Below are positions 46,163 through 47,390 of a DNA stretch of 64,000 nt, piece after piece. The notes below the pieces were generated by a model that worked only from the letters and a program-made list of their open reading frames with translations, was not told the origin of the DNA and did no database searches. The stretch spans positions 49,774 through 113,773 of the forward strand of contig CACHSZ010000001.1 of NCBI GenBank assembly GCA_902582755.1. Reading direction: 5' to 3'. Position numbers and translations under genes: made by a program. How positions within the stretch are numbered: position 1 is the first letter of the stretch; the number at the start of each line of letters is the position of its first letter. The stretch comes from an uncultured Alphaproteobacteria bacterium (GTDB lineage Bacteria; Pseudomonadota; Alphaproteobacteria; HIMB59; GCA-002718135).

Positions 46163-46818
46163 TGAGCACTCAAACTGAAATTAATGAAGCACTTGTGCAA
46201 TACTTACAAAGCGTAGGTTACCGAGAAGATAAAATAATTACTGAACTAGAAAATGAAACTTTAAAACTTGGTAGTGTTTCCCAAATGCAGATTGCAAAAG
46301 AACAAGGTCAGTTTTTAGAAATGATAACTAAAATTTCTAATGCTAAAAACTGTTTAGAAATTGGTAGGTTTACAGGGATGAGCACTTTGTTTTTGGCTAG
46401 AGGTCTACCTGAGTTAGGAAAAGTTGTAACTGTCGATAATTCAGATGAATTTTTATCCTTAGCAAAAAAATATTGGGAATTAGATAATATGAGCTCAAAA
46501 ATTGAATCGATTATTGGAGACGGTGTTGAGGTAATGCAAAGCATGATAGACCGTCAACAAAGTTATGATTTAATTTTTATAGATGCTGATAAAAATAATT
46601 ATCCAAATTATTACGAACTGTCGCTAAACTTATTAATTTCTAATGGAATAATAATTATTGATAATATGCTTTGGCACGGTGATGTGGCAGATGAAACTAA
46701 ACAAGACTCTCAAACAAAAACTATCCGTGATTTAAATTTAAAAATACAAAATGACACAAGGGTGGAATTCTCACTTCTGCCATTATCTGATGGATTGTCG
46801 TTTATAAGAAAAAAATAA
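46162..46818 (+). CDS. Class I SAM-dependent O-methyltransferase (COMT-like)
   Basis: The 218-residue Methyltransf_3 protein has a SAM-binding motif CLEIGRFTGMSTLFLA near 65. VVTVDNSDEFL follows, then YDLIFIDADKNNYPNYYEL with metal-binding Asp near 135, and IIIIDNMLWHGDVAD near 165. Family members methylate catechols and similar small molecules, and the substrate is unknown here. It is coupled to deoA by overlap. It ends six bases before the hsp20 heat-shock promoter. Confidence 0.9.
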   Translation: MSTQTEINEALVQYLQSVGYREDKIITELENETLKLGSVSQMQIAKEQGQFLEMITKISNAKNCLEIGRFTGMSTLFLARGLPELGKVVTVDNSDEFLSLAKKYWELDNMSSKIESIIGDGVEVMQSMIDRQQSYDLIFIDADKNNYPNYYELSLNLLISNGIIIIDNMLWHGDVADETKQDSQTKTIRDLNLKIQNDTRVEFSLLPLSDGLSFIRKK

Positions 46819-46824
46819 CAAAGA

Positions 46825-46856
46825 CTTGAATTAAACACAATCATCCCCACATTATA
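46825..46856 (+). promoter_or_regulatory. RpoH (sigma-32)-type promoter of hsp20
   Basis: CTTGAAT (46825-46831), a 13-base spacer and CCCCACA (46845-46851) match the heat-shock consensus. The predicted start near 46860 gives a 5' leader of about 55 bases. CCCACA can also pair with TGTGGG at 46873-46878, but only if transcription starts upstream of the -10 box. Confidence 0.72.
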
Positions 46857-46891
46857 TTTGTCTGTATGCCATTGTGGGTGCGGGCGAAATA

Positions 46892-46914
46892 AACTTGCTT
46901 AATAAAGGAGTTAT
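46892..46914 (+). promoter_or_regulatory. ROSE-like RNA thermometer hairpin masking the hsp20 ribosome site
   Basis: CTTGCTT (46894-46900), loop AATA and AAGGAG (46905-46910) fold so that TTGCT faces AGGAG. The pairs are U-A, U-A, C-G, a G-G opposition, U-A and U-G, with two more A-U pairs below a mismatch. A UYGCU segment opposed to the Shine-Dalgarno with a G-G pair is the hallmark of ROSE elements before alphaproteobacterial small heat-shock genes. The prediction is mine; no folding energy was computed. Confidence 0.55.
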
Positions 46915-46915
46915 T

Positions 46916-47353
46916 ATGACTAGAAACCTATCCGTTTGGAATTCTCTAAGACCATTCTCTGTTGGATTTGATTCAATTTTTGATGAATTTGATAGAATGT
47001 TGGAGTCTACGGAACGATACAATACAAATTATCCACCTTACAATATTCATAGAGTTGATGAGCATAACTATAAAATTGAAGTTGCTCTTGCTGGATATAG
47101 TAAAGAGGATATTGAGATTGAATTAAAAGAAAACAACCTAACTGTTAGAAATAAACCTAAAGAAAAAGTGGTTAATGAAAATGGTAATGGTGTAATTCAT
47201 AAAGGAATCTCAACAAGACAGTTTGAAAGGTCGTTCACAATTTCAGAAGACATCAAAGTTAAAGATGCTGAGCTGAAAAATGGACTTTTAGCAATTGATT
47301 TGGAGAGAATTATTCCAGAAGAAAAAAAAGCTAGACTAATTTCAATAAAGTAG
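46916..47353 (+). CDS. Hsp20/IbpA-type small heat-shock protein
   Basis: This ATP-independent holdase has 145 residues. The start is placed at ATG 46916, right after AAGGAG. The track start at 46874 would read through the leader and ribosome site. The alpha-crystallin domain spans about 35-135: YNIHRVDEHNYKIEVALAGYSKEDIEIELK, then FERSFTISEDIKVKDAELKNGLLAIDLER. The N-terminus (RNLSVWNSLRPFSVGFDSIFDEFDRML) resembles IbpA. A terminator follows. Confidence 0.94.
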   Translation: MTRNLSVWNSLRPFSVGFDSIFDEFDRMLESTERYNTNYPPYNIHRVDEHNYKIEVALAGYSKEDIEIELKENNLTVRNKPKEKVVNENGNGVIHKGISTRQFERSFTISEDIKVKDAELKNGLLAIDLERIIPEEKKARLISIK

Positions 47354-47362
47354 TTTTGGATA

Positions 47363-47390
47363 GGGGCCCAAAGTGGCCCCAACATTTTTA
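47363..47390 (+). terminator. Rho-independent terminator of hsp20
   Basis: GGGGCC (47363-47368), loop CAAAGT and GGCCCC (47375-47380) form an all-GC stem, followed by AACATTTTT. It begins nine bases after the hsp20 stop codon. The stem stands out in this AT-rich genome. Confidence 0.85.

Follow-up and report, generated by a model that had tools for sequence, protein, structure and literature searches.

Two-hairpin ROSE thermometers are known from Pseudomonas ibpA. The P. putida ibpA leader is a mapped 61–62-nt ROSE element of two hairpins; hairpin I does not melt, hairpin II alone is enough for thermoregulation, mutants with the bulged G of the thermosensing hairpin deleted are locked closed, and the role of the 5′ hairpin in ROSE elements is stated as incompletely understood (PMC3669281). 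The founding member, B. japonicum ROSE1 (NMR structure 2GIO, PMC11342760), also has a Shine–Dalgarno (SD) hairpin with a UYGCU strand and an extra G, but by description is set apart by four hairpins and a longer leader. ROSE-like thermometers have further been shown before ABC-transporter genes (PMC11342760).

The hsp20 leader studied here lies in a 64,000-nt stretch of DNA (the window) from a 1.43-Mb, 35-contig genome, and joins this already known two-hairpin type, as in Pseudomonas ibpA. We consider it very probably a ROSE-type RNA thermometer of two hairpins that governs how an IbpA-type small heat-shock protein (sHSP) is translated; the original prediction of a ROSE-like candidate before hsp20 is borne out by the fold, a match to Rfam ROSE_3 and comparative evidence. 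Shared with Pseudomonas ibpA are a sigma-32 promoter, a leader of ~60 nt, a stable 5′ hairpin, an sHSP gene, an SD hairpin that is short and combines U(U/C)GCU with a bulged G, and a start codon outside the stem (PMC3669281). The window leader differs in its SD hairpin, which is AT-rich and less stable (−2.6 kcal/mol at 37 °C versus −4.1 to −7.6; PMC3669281) and in length: originally put at ~55 nt and among the smallest of its type, it is predicted at ~57 nt, close to that figure and slightly below the 61–62 nt of P. putida (PMC3669281).

The gene begins with an ATG at 46916, directly downstream of the leader, and is flanked by an ORF ending at 46818 on one side and by a terminator-like inverted repeat (47363–47380) with T-rich DNA on the other. 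This likely terminator suggests a monocistronic transcript. The features of the transcription unit are:

46825..46830, + strand: −35 element CTTGAA of a sigma-32 (RpoH)-type promoter, read from the sequence and conserved in genus leaders
46845..46852, + strand: −10 element CCCCACAT, 14 nt after the −35 element, with one mismatch to the sigma-32 consensus CNCCATAT (PMC3669281)
46916..47353, + strand: hsp20, encoding an IbpA-type small heat-shock protein of 145 aa (Pfam HSP20, 6e-16; NCBIfam IbpA the best match; aligned with E. coli IbpA/IbpB)
47363..47389, + strand: likely intrinsic terminator GGGGCC-CAAAGT-GGCCCC, then T-rich DNA, read from the sequence; a similar inverted repeat lies 3′ of hsp20 in homologous loci

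The sigma-32 consensus is CTTGAA-N13-18-CNCCATAT (PMC3669281). CTTGAA-N11-17-CCCCA occurs once in the whole 1.43-Mb genome, at the hsp20 promoter, and the sigma-32-type promoter remains recognisable across genus leaders. One RpoH-like sigma gene is found in the genome (263 bits, under the equivalog cut-off), plus a longer sigma-70 frame. The claim of a heat-shock promoter before hsp20 thus agrees with the elements found, their conservation with the leader and the presence of an RpoH-like gene, and the promoter is probably RpoH dependent. By analogy, transcription would start at about 46858–46860, which gives the leader length of ~57 nt.

Within the leader, we distinguish two hairpins and the ribosome-binding sequence:

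46860..46885, + strand: hairpin I, a stable 5′ hairpin with an AUGCC/GGGU core and G46868 bulged (fold; covariation in the genus, across alphaproteobacteria and phages)
46893..46911, + strand: hairpin II, the candidate thermosensing hairpin, ACUUGCUU-AAUA-AAGGAGU, with G46897 bulged (fold; genus conservation; changes in divergent leaders; ROSE_3 match)
46906..46910, + strand: Shine–Dalgarno sequence AGGAG, sequestered in predicted hairpin II (sequence, fold)

This two-hairpin structure is the minimum-free-energy fold of 46860–46930 at 37 °C and leaves the start codon free. The predicted hairpin II pairs A46893–U46911, C46894–G46910, U46895–A46909 and U46896–G46908, then, beyond the unpaired G46897, the inner C46898–G46907, U46899–A46906 and U46900–A46905 around the AAUA loop, so that UUGCU (46895–46899) lies opposite AGGA (46906–46909) in the 3′-most hairpin. 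The pairing of UUGCU with the SD was correctly anticipated; of the central G–G opposition proposed with it, the bulged G is seen, a G–G pair itself being invisible to the tools used. The stem had been placed six bases from the ATG, which needs correction: 4 nt separate the stem, and 5 nt the SD, from the start codon. Hairpins I and II have a local motif in common (a Y–G pair, the bulged G at 46868 or 46897 and a C–G pair), and the hairpin I version (YGC/GG with its bulged G) is retained in divergent leaders.

We dropped folding energy as support, given a z-score of −0.59 against shuffles that is not significant (57 of 200 shuffles fold as well), and dropped SD occlusion too, several other SD-bearing leaders within the window (the control) being predicted equally closed. 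As the energy of the leader is ordinary for its composition, the structure rests on comparison.

The best RNA family for the leader is Rfam RF02523 ROSE_3 (46860–46921, 27.9 bits, E 0.0017 for 0.9 kb against all of Rfam), to which both hairpins and the AUGCC/GGGU core align end to end; genome-wide, the hsp20 leader is its single match in 1.43 Mb (E 6.3e-4). The Rfam comparison proposed with the original prediction therefore finds ROSE_3 as best family and falls short on curation: 27.9 bits lies under the gathering cut-off of 43, and the leader is accordingly best filed as a ROSE-like thermometer rather than as a curated RF02523 member. Characteristics of the class seen here are the position before an sHSP gene, U(U/C)GCU imperfectly paired to the SD in the 3′-most hairpin, the bulged G and, of the two to four hairpins that define the class, two, both backed by comparison. 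A FourU thermometer was ruled out: the anti-SD strand is CUUGCUU, without four consecutive U. E. coli ibpA (ROSE_2, RF01832) likewise has a UCGCU/AGGAG hairpin with a bulged G before an IbpA gene, and scores a weak 17.5 bits with our model R1; its leader is longer and reaches 100 bits to ROSE_2, whereas the window has no ROSE_2 match. Over 289 alphaproteobacterial genomes, ROSE_3 gives six matches at E ≤ 0.01, none above the cut-off and one near hsp20. This is too insensitive for comparison across alphaproteobacteria, so we used our own models, R1 and R2.

Within the genus, we aligned 49 distinct hsp20 leaders; most relatives of the gene at 85–100% identity belong to single-cell or metagenome genomes. 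In hairpin I, 32 cells are doubly changed; shuffles give 16.1, none of 500 reaching 32, and sliding the partner strand gives at most 10. The compensated variants of hairpin I include GC/GU/AU, CG/UA/UG and UG/GU/AU/GC/UA. Both strands of hairpin II are invariant except for the loop-closing pair, with 99.4% of cells paired over the 49 leaders, while linker and loop vary in sequence and length. The original prediction was to be abandoned should homologues keep AGGAG and lose UUGCU; both strands stand in all 49. Hairpin I (46860–46885), not singled out at that stage, carries most of the covariation. A sister family of the same order (L026–L031, including a one-contig 1.41-Mb genome) has the SD hairpin UUAACGCUUAAGGAGGUUAA, in which the same bulged G sits in a re-paired stem and the anti-SD strand ACGCU lies opposite AGGAGGUUA. 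Its hsp20 leader is longer, with apparently one extra hairpin, and our models score it weakly.

Model R1, built from genus leaders only, was run on alphaproteobacterial hsp20 loci, IMG/VR contigs and named phages. In 43 divergent sources it finds exactly one match each, at the hsp20 leader, although these sources were picked after a first look and 43/43 is no unbiased count. Across their leaders, pairing holds in 93% of cells and double changes occur in 14 of the 19 pairs. Doubly changed cells number 168, against 53.7 in shuffled and at most 35 in slid controls, which lessen but do not remove the bias towards structure of an alignment fitted to the model. One alignment (A3) takes in one off-target row (L213:2463). 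The inner C–G and U–A pairs of hairpin II are fixed and its outer pairs covary; the wobble U–G becomes C–G (strand UCGCU, seen in some relatives and phages) in nine of the 43, and the bulged G is kept while the surrounding pairs change. Hairpin I has one fixed C–G pair, with double changes in 11 of its 12 pairs. Compensatory changes, which the original prediction proposed to look for in related genomes, are thus present both in genus hairpin I and in the divergent leaders, and the comparative evidence for the element is far beyond chance.

Model R2 matches 31 of the 289 alphaproteobacterial genomes at E ≤ 0.05; some of these genomes (L201–L203), like the window, belonged to its training set. 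Among the 30 matches with a readable locus, 22 precede hsp20, five rpoH, one dnaK and two other genes. The putative copies directly before rpoH (sigma-32) come from five alphaproteobacterial genomes of three families (L228, L232, L233, L237 and L238), at about 1501–1580 on the strand of the match; the identity of rpoH was checked by N-terminus for three, L228 included, and by similar sequence for the other two, and one dnaK N-terminus was checked. No such thermometer was found in the organism's own rpoH leader. A related leader also lies before dnaK in L204 and L235, from one alphaproteobacterial family with genomes of 0.8–1.0 Mb, and has the anti-SD strand UUUGCCU.

The element also appears on the genomes of many marine and freshwater phages. 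R2 matches 77 of 80 IMG/VR hsp20 loci (L118–L197) at E ≤ 0.0012; almost every match lies immediately 5′ of hsp20, and several of these clusters (for example, L168, L174, L178 and L184) stood outside its training. Because IMG/VR contigs may contain host DNA, we read named phage records (L206–L217). The element lies on hsp20 in Pelagibacter phages Mosig, HTVC008M, HTVC115P and HTVC103P, in Synechococcus phages S-MS29, syn9, Sf-FR1, ACG-2014b and S-H9-1, and in Methylophilales phage Melnitz-3, phage C48C1 and marine virus AG-345-P14. Two hairpins are visible by eye in the named-phage leaders (HTVC008M and ACG-2014b score weakly with R1 and better with R2), and in most T4-like phages hsp20 is found close to genes for the sliding clamp, the clamp loader or DNA polymerase. 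When R1 is used to align phage leaders alone, 83 cells are doubly changed, against 25.9 in shuffles. Campylobacter phage A11a (L218, MG065691.1), an UNVERIFIED record with E. coli ibpA and its leader, probably represents contamination and was left out of all counts.

Of 42 leaders from phages or viruses, 26 have a motif resembling TATAAATA, with no more than one mismatch, immediately next to hairpin I; random windows give 1.3 and shuffled segments 3.9. TATAAATA is known as the T4-type late promoter; in phages, then, the heat-shock promoter appears to have been exchanged and the leader kept. Phage use of ROSE thermometers appears, provisionally, undescribed: a literature search for cyanophages and RNA thermometers, with most subscription journals outside its reach, returned nothing relevant, a paper on phage sHSPs makes no mention of upstream regulation (PMC3827213), and the phage RNA thermometers named are those of lambda cIII, SPbeta blyA and a sigma-70 gene (PMC11182007, PMC4166951).

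How would such a leader act? At normal growth temperature the UUGCU strand of hairpin II would hold the SD, the bulged G46897 and the U–G pair keeping the hairpin weak enough to open on modest warming. A rise of some degrees would weaken hairpin II and free the SD, for which the 30S subunit could compete; hairpin I would remain closed and may aid folding or mRNA stability. With RpoH increasing transcription, both transcription and translation would respond to heat. The original prediction was also to be given up should predicted melting fall far from physiological temperatures. The probability that the SD is unpaired is predicted (ViennaRNA) to rise from 0.06 at 24 °C through 0.12 at 35 °C to 0.22 at 45 °C, a gradual opening without sharp melting; between 24 and 35 °C SD exposure changes only twofold, and the matter is beyond what nearest-neighbour energies in 1 M salt can settle. 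For hairpin II in isolation the predicted energies at 24 and 35 °C are −3.8 and −2.1 kcal/mol; without the bulged G they become −7.8 and −6.0, a stabilization that would parallel the closed G-deletion mutants of Pseudomonas ROSE (PMC3669281). The E. coli ibpA core, as a fragment cut for comparison, gives −6.5 and −4.9 kcal/mol. The marine hairpin is thus predicted to be ~2.7 kcal/mol weaker at each temperature, and its strength at 24 °C would be about that of the E. coli core slightly above 40 °C. This modelled difference is in line with the growth range of a relative, a cultured AEGEAN-169 strain whose optimum is 24 °C, with slow growth at 30 °C and none at 35 °C (PMC10308909).

Other readings of the leader draw on the same observations. 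It is unlikely that the leader serves mainly as an sHSP binding site in IbpA-type autorepression, with free sHSP blocking translation, aggregates titrating the sHSP away, and melting secondary or absent. E. coli IbpA does repress its own translation by binding its 5′ UTR thermometer, and for this the protein needs Arg93 and an aromatic residue at position 34 (PMC10474464), and by alignment the window sHSP has Tyr and Arg at the equivalents of Tyr34 and Arg93. Nearly all sHSPs behind the element, phages included, hold both residues: position 34 is Tyr or Phe in every aligned protein, and Arg93 has its equivalent in all non-E. coli rows but one, the Lys of phage protein L214 (E. coli IbpB, with Gln, lacks it). 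Hairpin I, moreover, is conserved though hairpin II alone suffices in Pseudomonas (PMC3669281). Arg93, however, is part of an alpha-crystallin stretch that is itself conserved, and its retention may have other causes; the sHSP–leader binding data found are from gammaproteobacteria only; and it is a thermometer that requires the anti-SD/SD pairing and the retained bulged G. The two residues are therefore compatible with autorepression rather than proof of it, and the two mechanisms are themselves compatible.

Less probable still, and in our view very unlikely, is that a 5′ stabilizer and a constitutively inhibitory SD hairpin stand side by side and regulation falls to RpoH alone. The folding predictions without sharp melting in the growth range, and the ability of a 5′ hairpin to stabilize mRNA (PMC3669281), speak for this; but a permanently closed SD needs no invariant bulged G, which is kept while neighbouring pairs change, and proven ROSE elements have exactly this layout. 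We give almost no credence to the inverted repeat at 46860–46885 as a DNA operator, or to the stretch as coding: the repeat abuts the promoter and the ORF listing holds an in-frame GTG extension (start 46874), yet hairpin I contains many U–G and G–U pairs, meaningful in RNA and not in a DNA palindrome, and short linker and loop indels among leaders break the reading frame. Both were rejected on these grounds. The ROSE-type thermometer remains our preferred reading with several points against it, namely the sub-cut-off ROSE_3 score, the non-significant energy z-score, the equally closed predicted SDs of some other window leaders and the gradual predicted opening.

A broader proposal is possible, though we hold it only tentatively and with some doubt: that the two-hairpin ROSE element is a mobile regulatory module, carried by phage hsp20 and some rpoH or dnaK genes, in which hairpin I, with its own conserved bulged G, would form a second functional site. 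It might, for example, dock the sHSP, so that the leader would read both temperature and free chaperone; docking at hairpin I is conjecture, and the phage, rpoH and dnaK copies are candidates recognized by sequence.

What began as one candidate becomes, by comparison, an element supported by covariation. Heat control of hsp20 at the level of translation would have been retained in a streamlined, abundant ocean lineage, probably the AEGEAN-169/HIMB59 ('SAR11 V') clade, and, with a relative that fails to grow at 35 °C, the thermometer would need to function near 24–33 °C. Of wider interest are the copies carried by phages, those before rpoH and dnaK, and the bulged G that hairpin I conserves.
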